Positions 35,040 through 48,778 of a DNA stretch of 64,000 bases are shown one piece after another. The notes under the pieces are model-generated. The model saw nothing but the letters and a program-made list of their open reading frames with translations, had not been told where the DNA came from and searched no databases. Position 1 is the stretch's first letter; the number at the start of each line of letters is the position of its first letter. A program made the translations under genes and the position numbers. The stretch is taken from positions 682,001-746,000 of the forward strand of contig NZ_CP091787.1 of assembly GCF_022024035.1 (NCBI RefSeq). Reading direction: 5' to 3'. This stretch comes from Prevotella sp. E13-17. GTDB taxonomy: Bacteria > Bacteroidota > Bacteroidia > Bacteroidales > Bacteroidaceae.

Positions 35040-36551
35040 ATGAAGAAGCTATTTTGGACTTTTATCTGTTTTGCTCTTTTCCTGGTATCATGTACTGAGC
35101 GCCAAGCCAAATATCGTATTGGCATTTCTCAGTGCTCGGAAGATATCTGGCGCGACAAACAGAATTATGAACTTCGGATGGGAACCTATTTCCATAATAA
35201 TGTGGAACTGAAGTTTGCCGCAGCTCATGATAACGATGAGCGTCAGGTACAACAAATTGATAGTCTGGTGAACGAGGGCATCGATCTCTTGATAGTGGCT
35301 CCAAATCAGGTGCAGACCATTTCTCCTGCCATAGACCGCACTTTTGATAAGGGCATCCCGGTCATCGTGTCTGAACGAAAGACTAATTCTCGGAAATATA
35401 CCGCCTTTATTGGTGCAGATAACTATGAGATGGGGCGAGTGATGGGTGAGTACATCATTTCTTGTCTTCATGGTCGTGGCACCGTTTTGGAAATCAAAGG
35501 ACTAGAAGGTTCTTCGCCTGCTATCGAACGCCACAATGGTTTTATTGATGCTTTGAAAAACGCACCACAGATTAAACTGGTGGCATCGCTGCAAGGAGAC
35601 TGGACTGAAAACACTGGTTATGAGACCACCCGTCAGTGGCTGGCCAACCATCAAGACGAACATGTGGATTTAGTGTTCGGAGCCAACGACCGCACAGCGA
35701 TGGGGGCACGAAAAGCATTGGGCAATGGCGTGCGCTATTGTGGTATAGATGGTCTTCAGGGCGAAGGCGGCGGCATCCAGCTGGTTCGCGATTCTTTGTT
35801 GGAAGCCTCTTATATCTATCCCACTCATGGCGATCAGTTGATTGACCTGGCAGTGAAGATACTCGAGGGCCAGCCCTATGAAAAAGAGACTATGATGATG
35901 TCAGCTCTTGTGACGCGCGATAATGCCAAGGTACTATTGATGCAGAACGAAGAACTGATGCGACAAACACATCGGCTGGACCAAATACATCAAAAAGCAG
36001 ACTCGTACTTGCGAGAGCTCAACACCCAATATGTCATTAATTGGTTAGCTGCAGGTGTGATTGTCTTGTTGTTGGTGGTTATTGTGTTGTCTTATCTGCA
36101 GCATCTGCGCAAGTTGGCTATCCAGCGCGAACGTGTTACGAACACCATCTGGAATATGGAGCCCATCACTTCTGTTGAAGAACAGCAGACGCACGAGGAT
36201 GTGGACAAAGAGGAAGAAACAAATGCCAGTCCTGTCGAAGGGACGTTCATCTCTCATTTTCGTGAAGTGGTGGAAACCCGACTCGGTGATAGCGACCTGA
36301 GTGTTGATGACTTGGCCTCTGCTATGAACCTCAGTCGTGTTCAACTCTATCGCAAGGTGAAGGCTATGACAGGTTCTTCGCCCGTAGAACTGCTTCGCAC
36401 CGCACGTTTGAATCGTGCCTATCAGATTCTGCTCACTACAGACAAGAGTGTCAGTGAGGTAGCCTATGCTGTTGGTTTCACGGCTCCTTCTTACTTTACC
36501 AAATGTTTCAAAGAAGCCTATGGCATGGTGCCAGGCGATGTCAGGAAGTAA
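35040..36551 (+). CDS. Membrane one-component sensor-regulator: sugar-binding domain, membrane helix, AraC DNA-binding domain
   Basis: 503 residues. A lipobox-like L-V-S-C ends at Cys18. Residues about 24-300 form a periplasmic LacI/ribose-type binding protein (Y-R-I-G-I-S-Q-C-S ... A-F-I-G-A-D-N-Y-E-M-G ... F-G-A-N-D-R-T-A-M-G-A ... G-I-D-G-L). A helical signalling stretch spans about 305-330, one membrane helix about 333-354, then a linker. Residues about 401-503 are an AraC-type double helix-turn-helix (L-S-V-D-D-L-A-S-A-M-N-L-S-R-V-Q-L-Y-R-K-V-K ... V-A-Y-A-V-G-F-T-A-P-S-Y-F-T-K-C-F-K). The kinase, phosphotransfer and receiver domains of the hybrid fructose sensor in the corresponding Bacteroides locus (BT1754) are absent. 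It most likely senses fructose in the periplasm and activates the next genes from the membrane. Confidence 0.88.
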   Translation: MKKLFWTFICFALFLVSCTERQAKYRIGISQCSEDIWRDKQNYELRMGTYFHNNVELKFAAAHDNDERQVQQIDSLVNEGIDLLIVAPNQVQTISPAIDRTFDKGIPVIVSERKTNSRKYTAFIGADNYEMGRVMGEYIISCLHGRGTVLEIKGLEGSSPAIERHNGFIDALKNAPQIKLVASLQGDWTENTGYETTRQWLANHQDEHVDLVFGANDRTAMGARKALGNGVRYCGIDGLQGEGGGIQLVRDSLLEASYIYPTHGDQLIDLAVKILEGQPYEKETMMMSALVTRDNAKVLLMQNEELMRQTHRLDQIHQKADSYLRELNTQYVINWLAAGVIVLLLVVIVLSYLQHLRKLAIQRERVTNTIWNMEPITSVEEQQTHEDVDKEEETNASPVEGTFISHFREVVETRLGDSDLSVDDLASAMNLSRVQLYRKVKAMTGSSPVELLRTARLNRAYQILLTTDKSVSEVAYAVGFTAPSYFTKCFKEAYGMVPGDVRK

Positions 36552-36565
36552 TTCGCTGAAATATT

Positions 36566-36632
36566 AAATATCGTTCATTCCGTCGCAAAAATGTTACATT
36601 GCAACAATTTTTGGGTGGCATGAACGATATTT
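36566..36632. promoter_or_regulatory. Compound operator before the fructan SusC gene
   Basis: Two inverted copies of one site. The left copy is ATCGTTCAT (36570-36578), then 7 bases, then CAAAAATGTT (36586-36595). The right copy, on the other strand, has AACAATTTTTG (36603-36613) and ATGAACGAT (36620-36628). It matches the operator at 44795-44840. It is the probable target of the AraC-domain regulator encoded just upstream. Confidence 0.78.
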
Positions 36633-36657
36633 TCAATCTGTAGCTACTAATAATATA

Positions 36658-36665
36658 TACTTTTG
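36658..36665 (+). promoter_or_regulatory. Fructan SusC promoter -7 box
   Basis: TACTTTTG, identical to the box at 44886-44893. No TTTG lies 19-21 bases upstream, which fits an activator-dependent promoter. Confidence 0.75.
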
Positions 36666-36711
36666 TCGAAAATTCATTTTAACAAGAGTATTAACTAAAA
36701 ACTGAAAGCTA

Positions 36712-39700
36712 ATGAAACAAGCAAAACGAGTGTTTTTGAGTTTCCTGACCCTGCTGTTTTGTACGGTGATGCATGCACAGTCAACAGTTTCGGGAACGGT
36801 GGTCGATGAAACTGGTGAAACAGTCATCGGTGCCACTGTTAAGGAAAAAGGCACAGCAAATGGTACTGTGACCAACTTTGACGGTGAGTTCACGCTGAAG
36901 GTGGATGCTGGCAAGGTCCTCGTGGTCACCTACATCGGTTATCAACCGCAGGAGATGCCGGCCAAGAACGGCATGCGTGTGGAGTTGAAGCCCGACAATC
37001 AGGTGTTGCAGGAAGTAGTGGTGACGGGTTACACTACTCAGCGCAAGATTGATCTGACAGGTGCTGTCTCGACTGTGAATATTGGCGAACTGGCCAAGCA
37101 GAACGAGAACAACCCCATGAAAGCCCTGCAGGGTCGTGTGCCAGGTATGAACATTAGTGCCGATGGTAATCCATCAGGAGCCGCCACGGTACGTATCCGT
37201 GGTTTGGGTACGCTGAACAACAATGATCCTTTATATATTATAGATGGTGTGCCCACCAAGTCGGGCATGCACGAGCTGAACGGCAATGATATCGAGTCTA
37301 TTCAGGTTCTGAAGGATGCCGCTTCGGCTTCTATCTATGGTTCGCGCGCTGCCAATGGTGTGATTATCATCACGACCAAGCGCGGTAAGGAAGGAAAGGT
37401 GAGAGTAGATTTTGACGGTAGTGTCGCTGCTTCTTTCTACGCTCATAAGATTGAGACCCTCAATGCCCGCCAGTTTGGTCAGGCACTTTGGCAGGCAAAC
37501 ATCAACGATGGCAAGAATCCCAATAATAATATTGTGGGCTATAACTTTGACTGGGGATACGATCAGAACGGTCATCCGCAGCTCTATGGCGTGACCATGG
37601 ACAACTATCTGGACACCAACGGCACACTGCACGCTGGCGACACCGACTGGTTTGACGAGGTCACTCGCACAGGCATCGTTCAGCAGTACAACCTCTCTGT
37701 CAGCAGTGGCTCCGAGAAGGGTAACTCGTTCTTCTCTATGGGCTATTACGATAATAAAGGTACGATCAAAGAGTCAGAGTTCAGTCGTCTGTCGGCACGT
37801 GCCAATACCGAATATAAGTTGCTGGATGACATTGTAACGATCGGTGAGAACTTTACCCTGAACCGCACCAAGGGAACCGATGCTCCTGGCGATATTCTCA
37901 GAAACGCCTTGCAGTTCAGTCCCAATTTCCCCATCTATGCTGAAAATGGTGAGTATGCTCAGCCCGTGGGAGCATTCCCAGAGCGTGAGAATCCCCTGAG
38001 TATGCTTTCAAGAACGAAAGACAACGAATATACGATGTGGCGTATCTTTGGTGATGCCCACATCAGCATTACGCCGTTTAAGAACTTCATGATTCGTTCT
38101 ACCGTCGGCTTGGACTACAGTCAGAAGCAACAGCGCAATTTCCAGTATCCCGTGGCTAATGGTAAGATTGCCAACTCCGAGACCGCTGCCGAGATGCGTC
38201 AGGAGCATGCCCAGCGCTGGATGTGGAATGCCATTGCTACTTATAATTTGGAGATTGGCAAGCATCGTGCAGATGCCATGATTGGTACAGAGTTGAACCG
38301 CACGGACGACAACTGGAGTAATGCCCGTCGCTATGGCATGGCAGTACTCACTACCGATTATATGTGGCCCACAGCAGGCTCTGGTCGTCAGGTGGCCGAA
38401 GGCTCAGGCGGTGGCTTCTCGCTGGTTTCTTTCTTTGGAAAAGCCAACTACACCTATAATGATACTTACATGGCATCTTTCACCCTGCGTCGTGATGGTT
38501 CAAGCCGTTTTGGTAAGAACAACCGATACGGTACCTTCCCATCAGCATCAGCTGGTTGGCGTATCACTCAAGAGAAATTCATGGAAGGCACCAGAAGTTG
38601 GCTCGATGATTTGAAGGTACGTTATTCTTGGGGTATGACTGGTAACCAGGAAATCTCGAATACAGCCCGATTCACCATGTATGCACCCGTCGTTACCACC
38701 GAGTTGTGGAATGGTGAGGCCCCTGCCGGCACCGTTTACGACATCACCGGTAGCAATGGTGGCACCAACCTCCCCAGTGGTTATATCCGCAAGCAAATTG
38801 GCAACGAGGATATCAAATGGGAGACAACCATGCAGCACAACCTTGGTTTTGATTTCTCACTTCTCAACAGAGATATTTACGGCAGCTTTGACTGGTTCTA
38901 CAAGAAGACCACCGACATCCTCGTCGAGATGAAAGGACTTGGCACACAGGGTGAAGGTTCTTCGCAGTGGATCAATGCCGGCGAGGTGAAGAACGTAGGT
39001 TGGGAGTTCTCGTTGGGCTATCGTCATAAACTGGCCAACGGCTTCTCTTGGGACATCACAGGAAACATCAGTAAGTACACCAACGAAGTAACGAAACTGC
39101 CAGAGACCGTCGCTGCTGCCGGTACCTACGGTGGCAATGGCGTGTTCAGCATCATCGGTCACCCCATGTATTCAGAGGTTGGCTATGTGGCAGACGGTTT
39201 GTTCCGCACGCAGGAAGAAATCAACAACCACGCCTCTCAGGAAGCTGCCGGACTGGGCCGTATTCGCTATCTCGATGTGGTTAAGGACGGCACTATCAAC
39301 GAGAGCGACCAGGCATGGATCTACGACCCCACACCCGACTTTACCTGGGGTCTGAACATCTATCTGCAGTATAAGGATTGGGACCTGTCCATGTTCTGGC
39401 AGGGCGTTCAGGGCGTCGATGTCAACTGCTACGACTATAAGACCCAGACCGATTTCTGGACCAATACTTATGATAAGGTGAACCTTCCCTATTTGAATAA
39501 GGGCACCCGAGTTCTTGACGCATGGAGCCCTGCCAATCCTGGTAGCGATATCCCTGCGCTGAGCACCAGAGATGTTGCCAACGAAGGCCGCCTGTCTTCA
39601 TATTACATTGAGGATGGCTCATTTGCTAAGCTTCGTACCATTCAGTTGGGCTACAACCTGCCCAAGTCTCTTGTCAACAAGTTGAAGATGGAACGTGTAC

Positions 39701-39831
39701 GTCTTTATGCTTCAGCCCAGAACCTGCTGACCATCAAGAGCAGCAAGTTCACGGGTGTCGATCCTGAGAATCCTGGCTTCGGCTATCCAATCCCTCTCAA
39801 CCTCACATTCGGCATGAATGTATCGTTTTAA
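36712..39831 (+). CDS. SusC-type TonB-dependent fructan transporter
   Basis: 1039 residues. Signal peptide ending at about residue 23 (M-H-A-Q). Carboxypeptidase-like domain at about 26-105 (V-S-G-T-V-V-D-E-T-G-E-T-V-I-G-A-T-V), plug domain with V-R-I-R-G-L-G-T-L-N-N-N-D-P-L-Y-I-I-D-G-V-P, L-K-D-A-A-S-A-S-I-Y-G-S-R-A-A-N-G-V, then the barrel ending in a terminal Phe. It lies at the head of the fructan operon, right after the sensor gene and the operator. In Bacteroides thetaiotaomicron the corresponding gene is BT1763. It imports levan- or inulin-derived oligosaccharides together with SusD; linkage preference cannot be read from sequence. Confidence 0.94.
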   Translation: MKQAKRVFLSFLTLLFCTVMHAQSTVSGTVVDETGETVIGATVKEKGTANGTVTNFDGEFTLKVDAGKVLVVTYIGYQPQEMPAKNGMRVELKPDNQVLQEVVVTGYTTQRKIDLTGAVSTVNIGELAKQNENNPMKALQGRVPGMNISADGNPSGAATVRIRGLGTLNNNDPLYIIDGVPTKSGMHELNGNDIESIQVLKDAASASIYGSRAANGVIIITTKRGKEGKVRVDFDGSVAASFYAHKIETLNARQFGQALWQANINDGKNPNNNIVGYNFDWGYDQNGHPQLYGVTMDNYLDTNGTLHAGDTDWFDEVTRTGIVQQYNLSVSSGSEKGNSFFSMGYYDNKGTIKESEFSRLSARANTEYKLLDDIVTIGENFTLNRTKGTDAPGDILRNALQFSPNFPIYAENGEYAQPVGAFPERENPLSMLSRTKDNEYTMWRIFGDAHISITPFKNFMIRSTVGLDYSQKQQRNFQYPVANGKIANSETAAEMRQEHAQRWMWNAIATYNLEIGKHRADAMIGTELNRTDDNWSNARRYGMAVLTTDYMWPTAGSGRQVAEGSGGGFSLVSFFGKANYTYNDTYMASFTLRRDGSSRFGKNNRYGTFPSASAGWRITQEKFMEGTRSWLDDLKVRYSWGMTGNQEISNTARFTMYAPVVTTELWNGEAPAGTVYDITGSNGGTNLPSGYIRKQIGNEDIKWETTMQHNLGFDFSLLNRDIYGSFDWFYKKTTDILVEMKGLGTQGEGSSQWINAGEVKNVGWEFSLGYRHKLANGFSWDITGNISKYTNEVTKLPETVAAAGTYGGNGVFSIIGHPMYSEVGYVADGLFRTQEEINNHASQEAAGLGRIRYLDVVKDGTINESDQAWIYDPTPDFTWGLNIYLQYKDWDLSMFWQGVQGVDVNCYDYKTQTDFWTNTYDKVNLPYLNKGTRVLDAWSPANPGSDIPALSTRDVANEGRLSSYYIEDGSFAKLRTIQLGYNLPKSLVNKLKMERVRLYASAQNLLTIKSSKFTGVDPENPGFGYPIPLNLTFGMNVSF

Positions 39832-39861
39832 TTGATAACAGACAATCGAAATATGATAATT

Positions 39862-41622
39862 ATGAAGACTATATATAAAGCATTTGTCGCATGTTGTGCG
39901 CTTGGTGGTTTAACTTCTTGCTCTGACTTCCTCGACGACCAACTGCCACAGGCTACACTGACCGAGGAACAAGCAAAGGATCCTGCTAATGCAGACAACA
40001 TCCTTACCTCTGCATACGCTGGACTGGTAACCATCGAGGATATGAACGCCTCGTTCTCCTTGTGGAACTATGACACGCGCTCGGACGATGCATACGTTGG
40101 TGGTGCCGACCATTCTGATGGTACTCCTTTCCATAACCTGGAGCTATGTACCGGTGTGATGACCACCGACTGGAACTTCAGTTCCATCTGGACCAGACTC
40201 TATAAGTATTTGTCGCGCGTTAATCTTTGTCTTAATGTGCTGTCGAATGGCAATCAGGACGATGCAGCCGTTCAGGAGCGCATAGCAGAGATGCGCTTCC
40301 TGCGTGCCTACGGTCACTTCCAGCTGAAGCGCTTGTTCAAGAAGATTCCTTTTGTCAACAAGCCCAATCTGGAGGAAGATGATATTAAGAATATCTCAAA
40401 TACCGAATACACCAACGACGAAGGTTGGATGCAGATCATCGAGGACTTGAACTATGCCTACGAGCATCTGCCTCAGACGCAGGCCGACAAAGGTCGTCCC
40501 AACAAGTCTGCTGCCGCTGCTTTCCTAGCCAAGGCTTATCTCTACAAGGCCTACCGCCAGGACGATGCCAACAGCAATCAGGTGACCAGCATCAACGAAG
40601 ACGACCTGAAGAAAGTGGTGGAATACACCGAGCTCACCCTGTATCGTGGCTACGACCTTGAGGGCGACCTGCACAACAACTTCCGTCCTGAAGAAGCCTA
40701 CGAGAATGGCAAGGAGAGCATCTGGGCCATTCAGTATTCAAAGAACGACGGTACGAACTACGGTAACCTGAACTTCTCAAATCGTCTGATTCCACCCGAG
40801 CTTGAAGGTATCTTGGGCGGTTGTGACTTCTACAAGCCCTCACACAATTTGGTGAATGCCTACAAGACCGACTTCGAGGGCCATCCCATGTTTGATGAGG
40901 CTAATGCCACAGACTATGCTGTGCTTGTAGGCAAGACCGTCGGCAACAGCCAGACTGTTGACCCGCGACTCTTTATCACCGTGGGCATGCCCGGTACACA
41001 GTTTATGTTCAATCCCAATCCCAAACTTACCATTGGTGAGGGCAAGCCTTGGAGTCGTTCTAATGGCAACTATGGCAATTTCATCTCTCTGAAGCAGTGC
41101 GTTGACCCCGACCTGACAGATAAGTACATCTTCAATGCAGACAACCAGTGGGCTACATCGATGAACCGCATCGTGTTCCGCTATGCTGATGTGCTGCTCA
41201 TGCGTGCAGAAGCATTGGCACAGTTGAACAAGACCGGCGAGGCTATTCAGCTGGTGAACAAGCTGCGCAATCGCGCCAAGAGCATGCAGTCAAGCAGTGT
41301 TGTGGCCAACTATCCCAGTACGCTGAACGTACGTTTCAATGTGAAGCCCTACGAAGGCACTTACGACAAAGCCAAGACTTTGAGTATTGTCAAGATGGAA
41401 CGTCGTCTGGAACTGGCTATGGAGTGCGAGCGCTTCTTCGACTTAGTGCGTTGGGGCGAAGCAGCCAGCGTGATCAATAACTTCTATGCCACCGAGAGCA
41501 AAAGTGCCAAATTCCTTGAAGGTGCACAATTCGTGGCCGACAAGAACGAATACCTGCCTATACCTCACGAGCAGATGGCTGCCTCTAATGGAAAATACAC
41601 TCAGAACTGTGGTAATTGGTAA
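39862..41622 (+). CDS. SusD-type fructan-binding lipoprotein
   Basis: 586 residues from the ATG at 39862. This start gives a compact lipoprotein signal with lipobox L-T-S-C; upstream starts at 39853 (ATG) and 39832 (TTG, directly after the SusC stop) would add residues before it. RagB/SusD marks: M-R-F-L-R-A-Y-G-H-F-Q-L-K-R-L-F-K-K-I-P, R-Y-A-D-V-L-L-M-R-A-E-A-L-A, E-L-A-M-E-C-E-R-F-F-D-L-V-R-W-G, ending T-Q-N-C-G-N-W. Surface cap of the fructan transporter; corresponds to BT1762. Confidence 0.94.
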   Translation: MKTIYKAFVACCALGGLTSCSDFLDDQLPQATLTEEQAKDPANADNILTSAYAGLVTIEDMNASFSLWNYDTRSDDAYVGGADHSDGTPFHNLELCTGVMTTDWNFSSIWTRLYKYLSRVNLCLNVLSNGNQDDAAVQERIAEMRFLRAYGHFQLKRLFKKIPFVNKPNLEEDDIKNISNTEYTNDEGWMQIIEDLNYAYEHLPQTQADKGRPNKSAAAAFLAKAYLYKAYRQDDANSNQVTSINEDDLKKVVEYTELTLYRGYDLEGDLHNNFRPEEAYENGKESIWAIQYSKNDGTNYGNLNFSNRLIPPELEGILGGCDFYKPSHNLVNAYKTDFEGHPMFDEANATDYAVLVGKTVGNSQTVDPRLFITVGMPGTQFMFNPNPKLTIGEGKPWSRSNGNYGNFISLKQCVDPDLTDKYIFNADNQWATSMNRIVFRYADVLLMRAEALAQLNKTGEAIQLVNKLRNRAKSMQSSSVVANYPSTLNVRFNVKPYEGTYDKAKTLSIVKMERRLELAMECERFFDLVRWGEAASVINNFYATESKSAKFLEGAQFVADKNEYLPIPHEQMAASNGKYTQNCGNW

Positions 41623-41645
41623 TAAGAACATTTAAACTGAATATT

Positions 41646-43055
41646 ATGAAGACTAAAATATTTAATATCATCTGTGCACTGATGGTTGCCTGCGGGTTTG
41701 CTGCCTGCTCAGACGATCATACAGGCAGTCTCAGCGTCGGTGGCGATTGTCTGGTGCAGAAGTTCGTGCTTAACGACCAGTACGAAGCAACCATCGACAT
41801 GGCCACCAAGCTGATCAAAGTGAAGGTGCCCGTCGATTTTACCGCTAAGAACGACATGGTTGTCACCAGCATGATTGTTTCGCCAGGAGCATCCAGCAAT
41901 ATCAAGCAGGGCGACCATATCAATGTGGAAGCCGACCAGACCTTGCGCATCACCAATGGCGACCTGATGATGGAATATCGCATTGCCGTGCGCAATGACG
42001 AGGCCAAGCTCTATAACTTCTACCTTTCAGGCATCAAAGGTGCCATCAACGAAGAAGATAAGACCATCACTGTCTATGTGCTGGGCATCAGTGGCATCGA
42101 CCTGAGCAATGCTTCCTTCACTGTAGATAATAGCGAGGATGCTGTCAGTTTCCCGGCCAGCGGTTCGACTGCCGATTTTAGCGATCCGAACAATCCGTTC
42201 CAGCTCACGCTGAACGATGGCACGGCTACTAATACATATACCGTGAAGATCGTGATGATCGATAAACCTGTAGCCATCTTCGCAGGCAACGCAGCTAATG
42301 TCGATGAACTGAAAGACGAGGAGAAGGCTGCTGCCAAATGGCTGACCAGCAATATTCAAGGCTCGGCTTATGTCTCTTGGGAACAGATTGCCAACTTCGA
42401 CGGTCTGCTGGATGAGTGTAAGTTCATCTTCTTCCATCGCCAGACAGGTGCTTATACCTCCTTCTCTGGATTTGAGGGAGGCGAGAAGAGTGCCATGGAT
42501 GCTCTGCCAAAACTGAAGGAATACTGGAAGAAGGGTGGCGCTTTCGTGCTGCAGCGCATGGGTGTTAACCTGGCAGCAGCGTTAGGTGCTATGCCACAAG
42601 ACGGTTGTCCTAACAACTGTTGGGGTGGCAATGGCGAAGGTGGTCCACAGATGGGTGATGATCCCTGGACGTTGCCTGTCTTCGACAAGAACCATGCTTT
42701 GTGGCAAGGACTTGTTGTCAACCCTGCCAATCCCGAAGCCATTTACACGCTTGATAAGGATTACACCATCTGTAACTCAGCATCTCAGTATCACTGGGAC
42801 GGCGTTTCCGACGAAGCCCTCTATCAGAAGTTCGACGAAGTGACCGGTGGTAAGGCTCGCCGCCTGACCGGACATGGCAACGAGATTTCTTCTTGGGAAC
42901 TGAAAAACTACAATGGTGAGTTTGGAAAGGGTGGTATCATCTGTTTCGGTGCCGGTCTGCTCGACTGGTATTCTCCCACCGACTATACCTCTGTTTACCA
43001 TGAGAACATGGGCAAGATTCTGATGAATGCCTATCATTATCTCACCGGTGAATAA
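41646..43055 (+). CDS. Surface fructan-binding lipoprotein (DUF5018/DUF4960 type)
   Basis: 469 residues from the ATG at 41646, chosen because it gives a lipoprotein signal (lipobox F-A-A-C, Cys near residue 20). Residues about 35-205 fit two Ig-like domains (DUF5018 type: D-Q-Y-E-A-T-I-D ... Y-N-F-Y-L-S-G-I-K-G-A-I). Residues about 210-469 look like the DUF4960 domain (P-V-A-I-F-A-G-N-A-A-N-V-D-E-L ... K-K-G-G-A-F-V-L-Q-R-M-G), seen in the binding protein BT1761 of the Bacteroides levan locus. It probably holds fructan at the surface for the enzyme encoded next. Confidence 0.87.
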   Translation: MKTKIFNIICALMVACGFAACSDDHTGSLSVGGDCLVQKFVLNDQYEATIDMATKLIKVKVPVDFTAKNDMVVTSMIVSPGASSNIKQGDHINVEADQTLRITNGDLMMEYRIAVRNDEAKLYNFYLSGIKGAINEEDKTITVYVLGISGIDLSNASFTVDNSEDAVSFPASGSTADFSDPNNPFQLTLNDGTATNTYTVKIVMIDKPVAIFAGNAANVDELKDEEKAAAKWLTSNIQGSAYVSWEQIANFDGLLDECKFIFFHRQTGAYTSFSGFEGGEKSAMDALPKLKEYWKKGGAFVLQRMGVNLAAALGAMPQDGCPNNCWGGNGEGGPQMGDDPWTLPVFDKNHALWQGLVVNPANPEAIYTLDKDYTICNSASQYHWDGVSDEALYQKFDEVTGGKARRLTGHGNEISSWELKNYNGEFGKGGIICFGAGLLDWYSPTDYTSVYHENMGKILMNAYHYLTGE

Positions 43056-43090
43056 TCAATAACTGTCTAACCTTATATAAATAGAACAAT

Positions 43091-44710
43091 ATGAACACTA
43101 AAAGCATAAATAAACTGCCCCACACAATGACAGTGATGAGTTTTTGCTTGGCGGCCATTGCACTCTTTTCCTGCTCTGACGACAAGATTGTAGGCGATCC
43201 CGGCAAGGACTGGAATAGCAGCGAAGAGCGTTATTCGCCTGTTGACGAAGATGCTTTTTTGACCTACTTTAAGCCCGCACTTGGACGCGTAGGCGACCCC
43301 ATGCCGTTCTACGACCAGAAGGCAGGCAACTTCAAGGTGCTCTATCTGCAAGACTATGACGACAATGCCAAGTATTGTTTCCACCCCTATTGGGGCGTTC
43401 AGACCACCGATGGATGTAACTATCAGTCGATTGGCGAGGTGCTGGCAGTAGGTAGCAACGACTATCAGCAGGATGCTGCGCTTGGCACTGGCTGCTGTTA
43501 TTATAACGAGAGTGAAGGTCTGTACTATATTTACTACACTGGCGAGAACGCCGACTGTAAGGATCGCCAGGTGGTAATGCGTGCCACATCACCCGACTTC
43601 AAGACCTGGACGCGCGACAATCTTTGGCAGCTCCATGGTTCCGACTATGGCTATTCTGGCTGGGACTTCCGCGACCCACAGATCTTCGTGGCCGACGACG
43701 GTCTCTATCACATGGTTATCTCTACCAAGCCTTCCTACGGTGGCGATCCCAAGTTCGCCGACTTCAAGTCTGCCGATATGAAAAACTGGGAGCACGTCGG
43801 TCAGTTTAACATGGTGTGGGAGCGCATGTGCGAATGCCCCGATGTGTTTAAGATGGGCGAATGGTGGTATCTCGTGTTCAGCGAGGGACAGGCAGTCAAC
43901 TGGAGCCGCAAGGTGAAGTATGTCAAGGCCAAGAGCTGGGACGAGCTGAAGACTTGCCTCAACGACCCCAAGGTGTGGCCCGACTATAAGGAAGGCGTGC
44001 TCGACAGTCGTGGTTTCTATGCCGGCAAGACGGCCTCAAACGGCACCGACCGTTATATTTGGGGATGGTGCCCATACCGTTCTGGCGCAGATATCGATGC
44101 CAAGAATGTCAATGTGGGTGCTGGCGGCGAGCCAAACTGGGGTGGTGCGCTGGTTTGCCACAAGATTATCCAGCACGAAGACGGCACCATCTCACTCGGC
44201 GAGGTGCCTGCCATGGCGGCCAAGTACAACAAGCAGCAGGCGCTTCAGGTGGTGGCCAGCAATGGTTACGCCAATAGTCAGCTCACTGGCGAAGACGCCT
44301 ATGTGATGTTCGGCCGACTGGGTTATCACAACCACATCAGCATGACGGTGAAGACCGAAGGCAATGCCGACAGATTCGGCATCTCGCTGGTTCGCAGTGT
44401 CGATGCCAAAAAATACTATACGCTGATGGTAAACCCCGAGGCCGGTGGCGAAAAGCGCAAGGTGAACTTCGAGCAGGAGGGCGAGGAAGGCAAGGGCTTC
44501 ATCGAGGCAATCGATGGCTACGAGGTTCCACGTCCTGAGGATAATACCTATCAGATTGATATCTACACCGACAACTCCGTTTGTGTGATATATATCAACG
44601 ACAACGTCTGCTACACCAACCGCATCTATGGCATCCAGAATAACAACTGGAGCATCAACAGCTATGGTGGAATGGTGACCGTCAGTGACGTCAAAGTCAG
44701 TCAATATTAA
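43091..44710 (+). CDS. GH32-type surface fructanase lipoprotein
   Basis: 539 residues. Lipobox F-S-C gives a lipidated Cys near residue 28, so it probably faces outward. The five-bladed propeller motifs are present but atypical: the nucleophile region reads V-G-D-P-M-P-F-Y-D (near 66-74) instead of W-M-N-D-P-N-G; the stabiliser is F-R-D-P (near 193-196); the acid/base Glu is in E-C-P-D-V-F (near 247). Residues about 375-539 form a beta-sandwich resembling DUF4975, which replaces the usual GH32 C-terminal module. The place in the operon corresponds to the endo-levanase BT1760. It likely releases oligosaccharides from levan or inulin; which one is unknown. Confidence 0.82.
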   Translation: MNTKSINKLPHTMTVMSFCLAAIALFSCSDDKIVGDPGKDWNSSEERYSPVDEDAFLTYFKPALGRVGDPMPFYDQKAGNFKVLYLQDYDDNAKYCFHPYWGVQTTDGCNYQSIGEVLAVGSNDYQQDAALGTGCCYYNESEGLYYIYYTGENADCKDRQVVMRATSPDFKTWTRDNLWQLHGSDYGYSGWDFRDPQIFVADDGLYHMVISTKPSYGGDPKFADFKSADMKNWEHVGQFNMVWERMCECPDVFKMGEWWYLVFSEGQAVNWSRKVKYVKAKSWDELKTCLNDPKVWPDYKEGVLDSRGFYAGKTASNGTDRYIWGWCPYRSGADIDAKNVNVGAGGEPNWGGALVCHKIIQHEDGTISLGEVPAMAAKYNKQQALQVVASNGYANSQLTGEDAYVMFGRLGYHNHISMTVKTEGNADRFGISLVRSVDAKKYYTLMVNPEAGGEKRKVNFEQEGEEGKGFIEAIDGYEVPRPEDNTYQIDIYTDNSVCVIYINDNVCYTNRIYGIQNNNWSINSYGGMVTVSDVKVSQY

Positions 44711-44734
44711 ATTAATACTATGATGATAATCTAA

Positions 44735-44780
44735 GGGGACAAGCATCATCAACGGCTATTGCGCCGTTGTGATATGCCCC
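44735..44780 (+). other. Imperfect hairpin after the surface fructanase gene
   Basis: GGGG ... AACGGC pairs with GCCGTT ... CCCC around a short loop, with internal mismatches and no T run. It probably protects or ends the first fructan transcript before the second promoter. Confidence 0.4.
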
Positions 44781-44794
44781 TCAGACAATTAGGA

Positions 44795-44840
44795 AAAAAT
44801 CGTTCATTGTGCTCAAAAATGTTGCTATGAACGATTTTTC
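44795..44840. promoter_or_regulatory. Compound operator before the second fructan unit
   Basis: ATCGTTCATT at 44799-44808 and CAAAAATGTT at 44814-44823, as at 36570 and 36586, then the inverted ATGAACGAT at 44827-44835. The CAAAAATGTT element begins exactly 72 bases before the -7 box in both operators. Confidence 0.78.
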
Positions 44841-44885
44841 CTATTGTTTGCAACAAGAATGATAACAGAAAAGAGAAAAAACATC

Positions 44886-44893
44886 TACTTTTG
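44886..44893 (+). promoter_or_regulatory. Promoter -7 box of the second fructan unit
   Basis: TACTTTTG, identical to 36658-36665 and again without a TTTG at the -33 position. The leader to the ATG at 45002 is about 100 bases and holds no gene. Confidence 0.72.
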
Positions 44894-45001: not shown

Positions 45002-46708
45002 ATGAACGCAAAAAAGTTATTATCATTCTTGACGGCTGTCGCAATGACAACAGGCATCATGGCGCAAGTGACGCCCATTGTGCTTGGCGACAGTCATGCC
45101 ATGCTAAAGGTGACTCAACACTCACGCTATCTTCTGATACCCATACAGGAAACAGAAGACATCGCTTCTATTGCCGTGCTGGACGGACAAAACAATATGG
45201 TGCAGCGGCTCAACGTGAAGTTGGCCATTGACCGTGTTGACTATTGGGTGCCCTATGAGTTGCAGAATGCCTGCCTGATGGACATTGAGTTCCATGGCGA
45301 TCGTCGTCAGAAGGGTGCTGTCAGCGAGTTTGTTTGCTGGCACGAGATTCAGTATTCTGATAGCTTCAACGTAGCCAATCGTGAACGATTCCGTCCGCTA
45401 TACCATCACACACCGCAGTATGGCTGGATGAACGATCCCAACGGCATGTTTTATATGCCGTCGTCGCCGACAGGCAACGACGGGAAGACAGGTGCTGCCG
45501 GCGGCGTGTGGCACCTCTATTATCAGTATAATCCTTACGGTTCGCAGTGGGAGAACATGCACTGGGGCCACTCTACCTCGCGCGATCTCGTTCACTGGGA
45601 GTCACAACCCATCGCCTTGGAGCCTGACTGGCTGGGCAGCATCTTCAGTGGGTCGTGTGTGACCACCGGCGATTCAGTGGTGGCTTTCTACACTTCTGCC
45701 GGCATGCACCAGACGCAGTCCATGGCTGTCTCGAAAGATGGCGGACGTAGCTTCAAGAAATACTCGGGCAATCCGATTATGTTTACCAGCGATGTGCCCG
45801 ACTTCCGCGACCCCAAGGCCTTCTGGAACGAGGATGCCAAGATGTGGAATCTCATTCTGGCTGCCGGTCAGGAGATGCGTATCTACTCATCAAAGGACCT
45901 GAAACAGTGGCAGTACGAGAGCTCTTTTGGCAAGGAGTATGGCAACCACAGTGGTGTGTGGGAGTGTCCCGACCTGTTCAAGCTCGACGATAAGTGGGTG
46001 CTGATTTGTAACATCAACCCTGGCGGACCCTTTGGTGGCAGTGCCACGCAATATTTCGTCGGCCACTTTGATGGTCATAAGTTCACCTGCGAGTCGATGC
46101 CCAAGGTGACGAAGTGGATGGACTACGGCAAGGATCACTATGCCACGGTGTCGTTCTATAATGCACCCGAGAATCGCAGGGTGGTGCTGGCATGGATGAG
46201 CAACTGGCAGTATGCCAACCAAGTGCCCACGAAGCAGTTCCGCTCGGCCAACTCAATCCCCCGCGATCTGGGACTGTTCACCTGTGGCGAGGAAACCTAT
46301 GTCAGTGTGGTTCCGTCGAAAGAGATGCTGGCCCTCCGTGGTCAGAAGGTGAAACGTCCTACCGAGGCTTGCGAGATTGTGGTCGATGTGAAGTCGCAGG
46401 CCGAGATTGTGCTTTCAAACACCAAAGGTGAGCAGGTGGTGATGACCTATGATGCCGTTCGGCAGCAGTTTGTCATGGACCGCACGAAGGGGGGCGATGC
46501 CACCTTCAGCGAGACCTTCCCTTGCGTCACCGTTGCGCCCACCTATGGCCACATCAAGCAGTTGCGCATCTTCGTTGACCGTTGCAGCATCGAGGTCTTC
46601 GATGCCGAGGGCAAGATGGCCATGACCAATCTGGTGTTCCCGGCCGAGCCATATAACAACATCAAGGTGAAGGGCGGCAAGGCTGTTGTCTATCAAATTA
46701 AGTATTGA
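45002..46708 (+). CDS. Periplasmic GH32 exo-fructanase (fructan beta-fructosidase)
   Basis: 568 residues, signal peptide ending at about residue 22 (I-M-A-Q), no lipobox, so probably periplasmic. Residues about 25-115 form an extra N-terminal beta domain. GH32 catalytic marks: W-M-N-D-P-N-G near 142 (Asp nucleophile), F-R-D-P near 269, W-E-C-P-D-L-F near 321 (acid/base Glu). A C-terminal beta-sandwich (about 440-568) ends with the typical I-F-V-D-R-C-S-I-E-V-F segment. It should release fructose from imported oligosaccharides. First gene of the second operator-controlled unit, followed by transport and phosphorylation of its product. Confidence 0.93.
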   Translation: MNAKKLLSFLTAVAMTTGIMAQVTPIVLGDSHAMLKVTQHSRYLLIPIQETEDIASIAVLDGQNNMVQRLNVKLAIDRVDYWVPYELQNACLMDIEFHGDRRQKGAVSEFVCWHEIQYSDSFNVANRERFRPLYHHTPQYGWMNDPNGMFYMPSSPTGNDGKTGAAGGVWHLYYQYNPYGSQWENMHWGHSTSRDLVHWESQPIALEPDWLGSIFSGSCVTTGDSVVAFYTSAGMHQTQSMAVSKDGGRSFKKYSGNPIMFTSDVPDFRDPKAFWNEDAKMWNLILAAGQEMRIYSSKDLKQWQYESSFGKEYGNHSGVWECPDLFKLDDKWVLICNINPGGPFGGSATQYFVGHFDGHKFTCESMPKVTKWMDYGKDHYATVSFYNAPENRRVVLAWMSNWQYANQVPTKQFRSANSIPRDLGLFTCGEETYVSVVPSKEMLALRGQKVKRPTEACEIVVDVKSQAEIVLSNTKGEQVVMTYDAVRQQFVMDRTKGGDATFSETFPCVTVAPTYGHIKQLRIFVDRCSIEVFDAEGKMAMTNLVFPAEPYNNIKVKGGKAVVYQIKY

Positions 46709-46728
46709 GAATCAAAACATTGAACGAT

Positions 46729-47889
46729 ATGAAACAGAATAAGTCTATTTATCTGATTCCCGTCATGCTCTGCTTCTTCTGCATGGGCTTTGTGGATTTG
46801 GTGGGCATTGCCTCCAATTATGTGAAGAGCGATCTGGCGCTGAGCGACTCGGTGGCTAACGTGTTTCCTTCACTGGTATTCTTCTGGTTTTTAATCTTTA
46901 GTGTGCCAACAGGCATGCTGATGAATAAGATAGGGCGCAAGAAGACTGTGCTGCTTTCGCTCGTCGTTACGGTCGTCTCTTTGCTGTTGCCTCTGTTTGG
47001 CGAGAGCTTCGGCATCATGTTGGTGGCCTTCTCACTGCTGGGTATCGGTAATGCCTTGATGCAGACGTCGCTCAACCCGCTGGTATCTACGGTGATGGGC
47101 GGAGGCAACTTGGCTTCTACGCTTACCTTCGGTCAGTTTGTGAAAGCCATCGCTTCGTTCTCGGCTCCCTATTTGGCTATGTGGGGCGCCACGAAGGTGA
47201 TACCCGATTTTGACCTCTCTTGGCGAGTGCTGTTTGGCATCTTCTTCGTGGTGGGCGTCCTCTCCACCGTCTTGTTGTTTGTGACGCCTATCGACGAACC
47301 CGCCACCGAGGGCAAGGCCTCCTCGTTTATGGAGTGCCTGAAACTGTTGGGCACGCCCATCGTGCTGTTGTCGTTTCTGGGCATCATGTGCCATGTGGGT
47401 ATCGATGTGGGTACCAACACCACGGCACCAAAGATTCTGATGGAACGTCTTGGCATGACGCTTAATGAGGCTGCCTTTGCCACGTCGCTATACTTTATCT
47501 TTCGCACCGTGGGCTGTCTGACGGGATCGTTCTTCCTGCGTGTGTTGAAGATGCGCACTTTCTTTATCGTCAGCATCTCGATGATGGCCTTGTCCATGTT
47601 GTTGCTGTTCATCGGTCAGGCACAGTGGGAACTCTATCTCGCCATCGCCCTGGTTGGCTATGGCAACTCGAACGTGTTCTCGATGTGTTTCGCCACTGCC
47701 CTTGAGTCGATGCCCGACAAACAAAACGAGGTGAGCGGACTGATGATCATGGGACTCTTTGGCGGCACCATCTTCCCGCTGCTGATGGGCTTCGCCAGCG
47801 ACGGTTTCGGACAGGCTGGTGCCGTACTGGTCATGGCAGTCGGTGTGCTCTATCTCTTCACCTATATCAAACAATTAAAAACCGCATAG
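46729..47889 (+). CDS. MFS fructose/sugar transporter (FHS-like)
   Basis: 386 residues from the ATG at 46729; a TTG at 46705 overlaps the enzyme stop and is less likely. Twelve hydrophobic helices and the major-facilitator loop motif M-N-K-I-G-R-K-K between helices 2 and 3 are visible. It resembles the inner-membrane fructose transporter of the Bacteroides locus (BT1758). It takes up fructose made by the GH32 enzymes. Located between the enzyme and fructokinase genes, four bases before the latter. Confidence 0.88.
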   Translation: MKQNKSIYLIPVMLCFFCMGFVDLVGIASNYVKSDLALSDSVANVFPSLVFFWFLIFSVPTGMLMNKIGRKKTVLLSLVVTVVSLLLPLFGESFGIMLVAFSLLGIGNALMQTSLNPLVSTVMGGGNLASTLTFGQFVKAIASFSAPYLAMWGATKVIPDFDLSWRVLFGIFFVVGVLSTVLLFVTPIDEPATEGKASSFMECLKLLGTPIVLLSFLGIMCHVGIDVGTNTTAPKILMERLGMTLNEAAFATSLYFIFRTVGCLTGSFFLRVLKMRTFFIVSISMMALSMLLLFIGQAQWELYLAIALVGYGNSNVFSMCFATALESMPDKQNEVSGLMIMGLFGGTIFPLLMGFASDGFGQAGAVLVMAVGVLYLFTYIKQLKTA

Positions 47890-47893
47890 AACT

Positions 47894-48778
47894 ATGAATG
47901 AGAAACGTTATGTAGTAGGACTCGGCGAGGTCCTGTGGGACGTGCTTCCCGAAGGCAAGAAACTGGGTGGCGCCCCTGCCAACTTCGCTTATCATGCCGG
48001 ACAGTTCCTGGGCATGGACAACACGATTGCCGTGAGTGCGCTGGGCGAAGACCGTCTGGCTGAAGAGACACTGGATGCACTGCGCGAACACAACCTGAAC
48101 GACCTGCTGCCTCGTGTGCCCTATCCAACGGGAACCGTACAGGTGCAGCTCGATGAACAGGGCATCCCCAGCTATGACATCAAGGAGAATGTGGCATGGG
48201 ACAACATCCCCTACGATGAGGATATCCGTCAGATTGCCAAAAACTGCCGTGCCGTGTGCTTCGGTTCACTGGCACAGCGCAACGTGGTGAGCCGCACGAC
48301 CATCCAGAAGTTCCTCGACGACACCCCTGCTGACTGTCTGAAGATTTTCGATATCAACCTGCGTCAGCAGTTCTACACGATGGAGATTGTCAAGGAGTCT
48401 CTGCAGCGTTGCAACATCTTGAAGATCAACGACGAGGAGCTGGTATTGATAGGACGCATGTTTGGCTATCCCGGTCTTGATATGGAAAACAAGTGCTGGC
48501 TCATCCTCGGCAAGTACAACCTCGACATGTTGGTGCTGACTTGCGGTACCAATGGCTCGTATGTGTTCACACCTGGTCAGATGTCGTTCCAGGAGACCCC
48601 GAAGGTGAAGGTGGCCGACACCGTTGGCGCCGGCGACTCGTTCACGGGTTCTTTCGTGGGTTCTATCCTCAATGGCAAGTGTGTGCCCGAGGCACATCGC
48701 ACCGCCGTTCAGGTTTCGGCCTATGTCTGCACGCAGAATGGTGCCATGCCTGATATACCATCAGAGTTTGTGAAGTAA
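47894..48778 (+). CDS. Fructokinase (PfkB family)
   Basis: 294 residues. PfkB/ribokinase fold: the first signature region G-L-G-E-V-L-W-D with G-G-A-P-A-N-F-A-Y-H near 26-35, and the second signature D-T-V-G-A-G-D-S-F-T-G-S-F near 242-254, whose Asp is the catalytic base. It phosphorylates fructose in the cytosol, bringing fructan breakdown into glycolysis. Last gene of the unit, with a clear terminator after it. Corresponds in position to BT1757. Confidence 0.92.
   Translation: MNEKRYVVGLGEVLWDVLPEGKKLGGAPANFAYHAGQFLGMDNTIAVSALGEDRLAEETLDALREHNLNDLLPRVPYPTGTVQVQLDEQGIPSYDIKENVAWDNIPYDEDIRQIAKNCRAVCFGSLAQRNVVSRTTIQKFLDDTPADCLKIFDINLRQQFYTMEIVKESLQRCNILKINDEELVLIGRMFGYPGLDMENKCWLILGKYNLDMLVLTCGTNGSYVFTPGQMSFQETPKVKVADTVGAGDSFTGSFVGSILNGKCVPEAHRTAVQVSAYVCTQNGAMPDIPSEFVK

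Follow-up and report, generated by a model that had tools for sequence, protein, structure and literature searches.

How fructan loci are switched in Prevotella and its kin is not settled. In its account of the inulin locus, a 2024 study of Segatella copri (PMC11784079) reports no contiguous gene for a hybrid two-component system (HTCS) and calls the connection of an upstream homolog unclear. The 64,000-nucleotide stretch of the rumen-type Prevotella sp. E13-17 analyzed here (the window) carries a fructan locus in which similar short sequences precede two promoters, one before a SusC gene and one before the second GH32 gene, with a regulator gene upstream. What are these sequences, and which protein reads them? 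A conserved operator of a fructan regulon is present at both promoters, and it is quite probable that the transmembrane regulator encoded at 35040–36551 binds it and activates transcription when triggered by fructose.

Operator layout at the two fructan promoters

The elements that a first-pass annotation placed before both genes were recovered to the base. ATCGTTCATT lies at 36570 and 44799 and is separated from CAAAAATGTT (36586 and 44814) by 6 bases at the SusC promoter and 5 bases at the second GH32 promoter; at each, CAAAAATGTT starts 72 bases before TACTTTTG (36658 and 44886). TACTTTTG matches TAnnTTTG, the −7 box consensus described for Bacteroidota primary sigma promoters in PMC7366714. 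The corresponding −33 box, TTTG, is absent from −38 to the −7 box at both promoters, which fits activator-dependent promoters. A genome-wide search with the two-part motif (gap 3–8) returned 2 matches in the 3.45-Mb genome, both at the window promoters, and the motif read backwards with the same gap occurred nowhere in the genome. Among 3000 dinucleotide-preserving shuffles of both 100-base upstream regions, none produced an identical 10-mer at equal offsets; the real regions' tally of shared 8-mers was reached by 1, and their tally of reverse-complement shared 8-mers by 64.

The shared operator of the annotation is retained, but its compound ATCGTTCATT–CAAAAATGTT element is not the core: both sequences are parts of an opposite-strand pair in mirror image, forming the upstream mirror half. 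The core unit, as predicted from the sequence, is a plus-strand pair of half-sites, wTGnAMSAw, 21 bp apart with starts at −59 and −38, which is the direct repeat of two sites approximately 21 bp apart that marks HTCS-type operators. Both window promoters share one precisely spaced set of four short sites (Table 1), and of the window's 41 scored TAnnTTTG boxes, only the 2 at the fructan promoters have the half-site pair (12/12; runner-up, 7). The half-sites are of two types, A (TGAACGA) and B (TGnAACA). As had been noted, TTGCAACAA starts 59 and 38 bases before the −7 box (36599 and 44848), and ATGAACGAT 38 and 59 bases before it (36620 and 44827). The reading of the ATGAACGAT offsets as a displacement by two helical turns was dropped, and is replaced by an exchange of types A and B between two fixed positions 21 bp apart. 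B-first operators carry the 15-bp palindrome TGTTnCA-w-TGnAACA at their centre. A divergent promoter as the general role of the mirror pair was rejected, with a minus-strand −7 box at the mirror position (−125) in 4 of 111 promoters and at that exact position in neither window promoter.

Table 1 Operator parts, promoters, operons and regulator gene of the fructan locus (window positions)
Feature	Coordinates	Strand	Basis or conservation
Regulator gene, 503 aa	35040..36551	+	Pfam, sequence, structure match, AlphaFold model
Promoter 1 outer mirror half-site, type A (TCGTTCA on +)	36571..36577	-	conserved in relatives
Promoter 1 inner mirror half-site, type B (TGTTACA on +), overlapping CAAAAATGTT	36592..36598	-	conserved
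Promoter 1 distal half-site, type B, TGCAACA; 9-mer start 59 before -7 box	36600..36606	+	conserved
Promoter 1 proximal half-site, type A, TGAACGA; 9-mer start 38 before -7 box	36621..36627	+	conserved
Promoter 1 (SusC operon) -7 box TACTTTTG, without TTTG -33 box	36658..36665	+	
Promoter 1 probable operon	36712..44710	+	Pfam
Promoter 1 operon genes: SusC; SusD; DUF4960 protein; GH32	36712-39831; 39832-41622; 41616-43055; 43091-44710		Pfam
Promoter 2 outer mirror half-site, type A; 20 bp to inner one, not 21	44800..44806	-	
Promoter 2 inner mirror half-site, type B, one mismatch (TGTTGCT on +)	44820..44826	-	
Promoter 2 distal half-site, type A, TGAACGA; 9-mer start 59 before box	44828..44834	+	
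Promoter 2 proximal half-site, type B, TGCAACA; 9-mer start 38 before box	44849..44855	+	
Promoter 2 (second GH32 operon) -7 box TACTTTTG, without TTTG -33 box	44886..44893	+	
Promoter 2 probable operon	45002..48778	+	Pfam
Promoter 2 operon genes: GH32; MFS transporter; PfkB-family sugar kinase	45002-46708; 46705-47889; 47894-48778		Pfam

Conservation of the operator in relatives

Among the checks on chance, conservation in relatives is the strongest. The −7 box nearest each gene was used, and a pair was counted at a score of at least 10/12 at positions −58/−37. The 107 SusC genes (4 without a box) yielded 98 distinct nearest boxes, and the 48 second-GH32 genes (16 without a box) yielded 29. 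In related Prevotella, a comparison for which the annotation had called, the operator is kept at both promoters: both half-sites were present at 91 of 98 SusC boxes (92 of 98 with the best-scoring box per gene instead of the nearest) and at 18 of 29 second-GH32 boxes. The pair occurred 0 times at each of 11 slid control positions and, upstream of regulator genes, at 0 of 78 nearest boxes. At a score of at least 9, it was missing from 7/98 SusC and 10/29 second-GH32 boxes. When 27 distance × spacing combinations were permitted, pairs scoring 17–18/18 fell at 38/21 in 24 of 24 cases and pairs scoring 16 in 9 of 10. A TTTG start within −32..−19 was found at 10 of 92 operator promoters versus 24 of 65 operator-less boxes upstream of regulator genes. 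The mirror pair, with its inner site at −60 and the outer 21 bp beyond, is present at 64 of 92 operator promoters. A lag test asked whether the spacing could be a generic signature of SusC promoters within the own genome (loci for 30 of 34 Plug-domain genes, 29 used after exclusion of the fructan locus). The mean match at lag 21 (5.35/16) was the highest of 22 lags but differed little from the others (3.65–5.18); 13 of the 29 loci had a box, 17 boxes in total, which need not be true promoters.

The two half-site types are usually combined. SusC promoters alone included 0 AA and 1 BB among 90 typed pairs, and clustering this set at 70% left 21 clusters (AA 0, AB 5, BA 13, BB 1, unclear 2; p 5e-4). 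Of the 122 pairs typed at one-component loci, with TGnATCA counted as a variant alongside A and B, 115 were mixed, in either order. An absolute A+B rule was rejected: when all boxes in 155 loci were scanned, one-component Prevotella loci showed 5 AA and 2 BB pairs, so the pairing is a strong tendency only. Three of the AA loci (L110, L113 and L121) fall together in a well-supported clade of the tree; of the others, L102 and L116, the latter lies outside that tree's set. Mixed pairs in both orders might suggest a heterodimer of two regulators, each reading one half-site, but the own genome has a single sensor-type regulator, AA and BB pairs do occur, and the order swapping is more simply explained by a single protein that has one strong and one weak site. 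Loci of other genera and families also speak against it: 11 of 30 have the same geometry, all 11 pairs are B-type on both sides, and 10 stand beside full-length regulators (1 regulator is cut by a contig end). The remaining 19 of 30 had no pair at a score of at least 11 in the fetched stretch. We regard a heterodimer as very improbable.

The inverted repeats could alternatively be RNA hairpins or terminators that end the upstream genes, rather than protein sites. RNA folding of both regions was indeed far stronger than that of shuffles (z −5.6, −7.1 and −6.8 for three stretches), but a stem is expected anywhere a protein reads a palindrome, and a hairpin could lie at any distance from the −7 box, whereas the distance seen here is fixed. 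Complementarity exceeded shuffles at five outer pairs of B-first promoters (n = 41; observed vs shuffled: (−89,−29) 32 vs 22.9; (−78,−40) 32 vs 22.1; (−77,−41) 29 vs 25.6; (−76,−42) 18 vs 12.4; (−75,−43) 32 vs 27.9) and at one pair of A-first promoters (n = 24; (−79,−60) 22 vs 19.4). However, at 80% identity the covarying sets shrink to 6 and 4 clusters and no pair remains significant, and pairing of the free base of the central palindrome would be possible in only 4/55 and 1/27 sequences, below shuffles. A terminator scan matched neither place, though with loops of 3–8 only it is blind to these repeats. Overall, hairpins are a quite unlikely explanation, and we return to a protein-bound operator.

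The adjoining regulator and its putative regulon

The annotation had named the upstream AraC-type regulator as the natural binder. Its AraC domain is borne out, with HTH_18 and HTH_AraC scores of 75.9 and 43.7 bits against cut-offs of 33.6 and 26.6 that place it in AraC/XylS, but it is not a plain AraC protein; it is a transmembrane sugar sensor related to BT1754, the fructose-sensing HTCS of B. thetaiotaomicron. A Peripla_BP_4 periplasmic sugar-binding domain (residues 56–278, Pfam) is followed by a hydrophobic stretch at about 335–353, a flexible linker at about 369–399 and the AraC-type DNA-binding domain (HTH_18, 425–503). The AlphaFold model has one continuous long helix, 293–372, including the membrane span; the approximately 47 residues from the end of the hydrophobic stretch (353) to the first AraC-domain helix (400) are partly of low confidence in this model. 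Like an HTCS, the regulator joins a periplasmic sensor and an AraC-type domain in a single chain, but the histidine kinase (HisKA, HATPase) and receiver domains of an HTCS have no Pfam match in its 503 residues. It is of a transmembrane one-component type, with a predicted span between sensor and AraC domain and without phosphorelay modules. The nearest solved structure is 2x7x (E 8.4e-78), which we take to be the sensor structure of BT1754; the predicted ligand, fructose, is taken from a relative with 42% identity in the sensor.

This adjoining AraC-domain sensor is most likely the binder of the operator, judging by protein and DNA sequence. Regulators that are full-length, ATPase-less or without any kinase parts have a common operator geometry, and the DNA-reading stretch RVQLYRK is invariant in 23 of 23 aligned one-component regulators, with few departures in a longer listing (L035, L104 and L215). 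Among 35 other same-genus genomes, the operator profile matched in 23 of 24 genomes with a sensor-type regulator versus 1 of 11 without, at a threshold of E ≤ 1e-4 chosen after the matches were known; removing the 12 genomes that had supplied profile rows left 11/12 versus 1/11 (Fisher p 1e-4). This co-occurrence is partly due to both sitting in one locus. In one 79% complete genome (G015), the operator matched and the regulator was not found.

A different binder is unlikely, whether a second hybrid regulator with an AraC domain or a dimer sitting symmetrically on the palindrome TGTTnCA-w-TGnAACA at the centre of B-first operators. Searching the own genome with the regulator gave 19 matches; among the matches listed, the two besides the regulator itself align in the AraC domain only, but just one sensor-type regulator is found there at E ≤ 1e-60, and it is this type that the operator follows across genomes. 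Moreover, A-first promoters break the palindrome (e.g., TGTTGCA-T-TGAACGA) and keep the tandem pair.

The operator probably extends beyond the two window promoters. In the own genome, the profile scored 75.1 bits at promoter 1, itself a training row, and 42.9 at promoter 2; its third match (20.1 bits, E 0.0019), at C1:2593950, about 1.9 Mb away, has the exact 37/21 geometry and precedes the gene of a 303-aa secreted protein, which occupies genome positions 2592987–2593895. Relatives of this protein lie inside fructan loci in all 5 genomes having one (59 other genomes searched). Weak profile matches at seven further own-genome places (L234 and L254–L259) had no box with a pair at a score of at least 9.

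Proposed mechanism and comparison with known systems

We propose a plausible mechanism for activation. Fructose would close the periplasmic sugar-binding domain, and the closure signal would cross the membrane via one long helix. The AraC domains of a regulator dimer would then settle on the two tandem half-sites starting at −59 and −38, which, being 21 bp apart, face the same side of the helix. Because the near half-site ends at the place of a would-be −33 box, regulator bound there may substitute for the lost −33 contact and recruit RNA polymerase. The mirror half-sites, symmetric about −59, probably hold a second dimer back to back. The scheme has no phosphorylation step because the kinase and receiver are absent.

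More tentatively, and with somewhat less than even confidence, we speculate that the BT1754-type phosphorelay is dispensable and was lost several times in Prevotella, the ATPase domain first and then the other kinase and receiver parts, with the operator geometry unchanged. The drive across the membrane would be mechanical, two dimers would occupy a four-site mirror operator back to back, and the A+B combination would tune one strong and one weak contact. Because full, ATPase-less and kinase-less regulators occur naturally on one operator geometry, the need for phosphorylation is directly testable. A kinase-less sensor-regulator with a readable operator is also a direct candidate for fructan loci such as that of S. 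copri, and the distant third site suggests that the operator profile can serve as a regulon finder.

The activator layout has a classical counterpart. At I1-I2 of E. coli AraC, tandem half-sites 21 bp apart adjoin the −35 region in an activator position, and AraC is a cytoplasmic protein that loops to a distant site. The tandem 21-bp layout is shared, whereas the tandem pair of the fructan promoters is directly adjoined by two mirror half-sites. Among HTCS regulators, direct repeats with an average spacing of 21 bp were predicted for 16 members, according to the description in PMC3878776, and the operator given there for HTCS_Fru of BT1754 likewise consists of tandem copies spaced by 21 bp ahead of susC and GH32 genes, in a fructan locus encoding a BT1754-type sensor (PMC3878776). 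The likeness seen lies in spacing and locus context; beyond that description, the operator here keeps a set distance from the −7 box, has two half-site types usually combined as A+B, and carries a mirrored pair on the opposite strand. BT1754 and the window protein have homologous sensors (E 8.4e-78), an AraC domain and similar locus content, but the window protein is without HisKA, HATPase and receiver domains. The 37/21 geometry also occurs in loci with sensors as much as 96% identical to that of BT1754, the best identity among the genomes searched, where B. thetaiotaomicron itself was not found. As reported in PMC3404733, intact, membrane-bound BT1754 bound DNA in ChIP-seq, with the strongest signal in the 3′ region of the BT1754 gene and not at a mapped promoter. 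Transmembrane transcription regulators, as described in a genome census (PMC10269533), similarly combine an outside sensor, a membrane helix and a cytoplasmic DNA-binding domain with no phosphorelay; the main text of that census mentions AraC, Prevotella and 'periplasmic binding' 0 times. Unlike the regulators of the census, the form found here seems to be derived from an HTCS.

Operator anatomy at the fructan promoters

Re-reading of the window sequence bore out all coordinates and distances of the first-pass annotation, which had placed a matching compound operator before the SusC operon (promoter 1) and the second-GH32 operon (promoter 2); both carry the -7 box TACTTTTG, with no TTTG in the preceding 38 bases. 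The similarity of the two regions is rarely reproduced by shuffled sequence, and a search of the whole 3.45-Mb genome for the two-part motif returned matches only at these two promoters. The two words of the operator are real; what had been read as a compound element, ATCGTTCATT plus CAAAAATGTT, is a mirror pair of half-sites on the other strand. Two further words, said to move by 21 bases between the promoters, proved to be two fixed sites with their letters swapped.

A scan of 552 TAnnTTTG boxes, drawn from the window plus 34 relatives' loci, with 27 distance/spacing combinations allowed, assigned the combination 38 + 21 to 24/24 half-site pairs scoring 17 or 18 of 18 and to 9/10 scoring 16. 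A motif-independent alignment of 98 distinct SusC promoters (107 SusC genes, 4 without a box), aligned on the box nearest the gene, showed four conspicuous blocks. Comparison with fructan loci of relatives, as proposed in the earlier reading, showed that the + strand pair is kept: both half-sites (score ≥10 of 12) were present at 91/98 nearest SusC boxes, or 92/98 if the better of several boxes was chosen. Of 48 second-GH32 genes, 16 have no box; among the 29 distinct nearest boxes of the others, 18 carry the pair at this score and 10 lack it even at ≥9. The pair occurred at 0/78 boxes lying nearest upstream of a regulator gene, and at none of 11 slid offsets. Blocks 1 and 2 repeat this half-site on the opposite strand, and this mirror pair, with its inner site at -60 and its outer site 21 bp beyond, was seen in 64/92 promoters; thus, the operator as a whole comprises four sites arranged in mirror symmetry around -59.

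Features of the fructan locus and operator (negative positions, bases before the start of the -7 box)
Feature	Position	Sequence or content	Source
Fructan locus, gene order	regulator at window 35040-36551 (+)	GDSL protein, regulator, SusC, SusD, DUF4960 protein, GH32, promoter 2, GH32, MFS transporter, PfkB kinase	Pfam
Block 1	-91..-79	AAAAATCGTTCAT	98-promoter SusC alignment
Block 2	-72..-60	CAAAAATGTTnCA	98-promoter SusC alignment
Block 3	-59..-46	near wTGnAMSAwnTTTT	98-promoter SusC alignment
Block 4	-38..-25	near wTGnAMSAwnTTTT	98-promoter SusC alignment
GC-rich hairpin	window 44711-44798	CAACGGC..GCCGTTG, between first GH32 gene and operator 2	
Gene behind third site	G000 (own genome):C1:2592987-2593895 (locus L260:4985-5896), outside window	303-aa secreted protein, no Pfam match	

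Such a mirror could instead be kept as an RNA hairpin. Hairpin potential at the operator regions is strong, and covariation exceeded shuffles at five outer pairs in B-first promoters and at one in A-first promoters (half-site types defined below), but this covariation does not hold at cluster level, and at the operator centre pairing falls below shuffles, the opposite of what a hairpin would give.

Half-site types and a third site

The half-sites fall into type A (TGAACGA) and type B (TGnAACA, with the variant TGnATCA). Among 92 SusC promoters, 58 pairs were BA, 28 AB, 3 variant-A, 1 BB, none AA and 2 unclear; the 19 second-GH32 promoters (score ≥9) comprised 14 A-variant, 4 AB and 1 BB. Because 11 of the 19 loci with a second-GH32 operator are B-first at SusC and A-first at GH32, the order swap between the window promoters recurs in relatives. 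Five are A-first at both, one combines AB with BB, and two have no visible SusC operator. Typing was extended to all boxes of 155 loci (score ≥11, 153 distinct boxes). In the Prevotella set, boxes nearest a one-component regulator were 115 mixed, 5 AA, 2 BB and 4 unclear, and those nearest an ATPase-less regulator were mixed in 7/7 cases; those nearest a full-length regulator, a part that takes in four other-family loci (L055, L056, L058 and L060, the last being one of the BB cases), were 4 mixed, 2 BB and 2 unclear. Thirty loci of other genera or families gave 11 pairs, B-type on both sides. From the A+B pairing, in promoters that are mutually related, we infer a single protein that binds one half-site strongly and the other weakly.

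Run on the own genome, a sequence-only operator profile built from 62 promoters gave promoter 1, one of its rows, 75.1 bits; two places outside the profile followed, promoter 2 with 42.9 bits and a third site, C1:2593950, with 20.1 (E 0.0019). The sole other matches ranked among these three were the two operators read on the minus strand, and seven weaker own-genome matches that were inspected showed no box with a half-site pair. At the third site, an A and a variant-B half-site are spaced by 21 bp, and TACATTTG stands at exactly the expected position. Relatives of the 303-aa protein behind it occur in 5/59 other genomes, in 5/5 cases inside a fructan locus, and in 10/155 loci (the same five genomes included), 8 of them directly after the first GH32 gene; three of the 10 have their own operator (score ≥10), and one more, in locus L066, shows both mirror sites together with an A site and a poor box. 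The profile thus led to a gene of the relatives' fructan loci that here lies ~1.9 Mb off on the contig. A low-confidence model of the protein (pLDDT 67.6) is similar in Foldseek (E ~1e-5) to carbohydrate-binding modules of families 11, 29 and 4. In several relatives, the 303-aa gene occupies the spot of the GC-rich hairpin.

Operator matches (E≤1e-4, a cut-off chosen after the matches were seen) were present in 23/24 same-genus genomes with a sensor-type regulator (E≤1e-60) vs 1/11 without, among 35 other genomes; G022, a genome without the regulator, had a match just above the cut-off (2.7e-4). With the 12 genomes that supplied profile rows left out, the contrast was 11/12 vs 1/11, which fits locus inheritance as well as function. 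In a 120-genome sample of the genus, overlapping the earlier set, 90 had a match at E≤1e-4.

A sensor–AraC regulator lacking kinase modules

The regulator differs from a simple AraC protein: a periplasmic sugar-binding domain precedes its membrane helix and AraC domain (Pfam and sequence), and Pfam gave no kinase or receiver match. In an AlphaFold model (23 input sequences, mean pLDDT 83.7), a single unbroken helix (293-372) follows the sensor, and a linker of low confidence (369-399) leads to the AraC domain. The RVQLYRK stretch of the AraC domain is invariant in 23 aligned one-component regulators, with a few departures in a longer listing. The closest solved structure to the sensor, 2x7x, is labelled only SENSOR PROTEIN; we take it to be the fructose sensor BT1754. 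According to excerpts of PMC3878776 and PMC3404733, BT1754 senses fructose through a sugar-binding-family domain located in the periplasm. The regulator starts with a lipobox-like LVSC (window 35040-35100); since all 23 aligned regulators share its cysteine (residue 18), the sensor may be lipid-anchored besides membrane-spanning.

Of 169 regulator ORFs in the loci (duplicates kept, Pfam check on 9), 111 were sensor-AraC, 44 had all modules, 10 had HisKA and receiver without HATPase, and 4 were partial. The HATPase-less regulators (L041, L042, L043, L045, L049, L057, L059, L061, L062 and L066, with a cut one in L065) lack the domain for self-phosphorylation, which is therefore impossible in the usual way. 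They occupy at least three places in a tree of 146 sensor domains, whose well-supported branches require the one-component label to change at least seven times and the ATPase-less label at least five times, rough counts from a short search with 51/143 forks open. As regain of lost modules is unlikely, we read this as repeated loss of the kinase modules, probably via the ATPase-less form. A second one-component regulator, 35-40% identical, is present in L038, L045, L048, L063, L064, L076, L094, L102, L119, L135, L140 and L146, and often adjoins a further fructan SusC gene; among the operators listed, those of its type keep the + strand pair and seemingly lack the outer mirror site.

Proposed mechanism and relation to known sensors

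Tandem sites two turns apart would place two AraC domains on the same face, and the near site ends ~25 bases before the box, the expected place of a -33 element. TTTG is depleted there (10/92 operator promoters vs 24/65 operator-less boxes upstream of regulator genes), and together this placement fits an activator in contact with polymerase. Tethered to the membrane by helix and flexible linker, a symmetric dimer could reach the direct repeat. The mirror pair could accept a second dimer or, alternatively, lock the dimer into an inactive placement as long as sugar is absent. A divergent promoter was excluded as its general role, with a minus-strand -7 box at the mirror position (-125) in only 4/111 promoters. 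Such a box stands at the exact SusC-promoter mirror position in loci L087, L095, L135 and L143, which may have divergent promoters. The binder, the ligand and activation are putative for the window operator.

In the open-access literature, we recognised no description of the kinase-less sensor-AraC architecture or its operator. According to excerpts of PMC3404733, intact membrane-bound BT1754 binds DNA by ChIP-seq, with the strongest signal in the 3' region of the BT1754 gene. In HTCS, as sections of PMC11253607 have it, the receiver keeps the AraC domain inactive, and one HTCS, BT4236, is without the phosphorylated histidine; kinase-free signalling has thus already been proposed.
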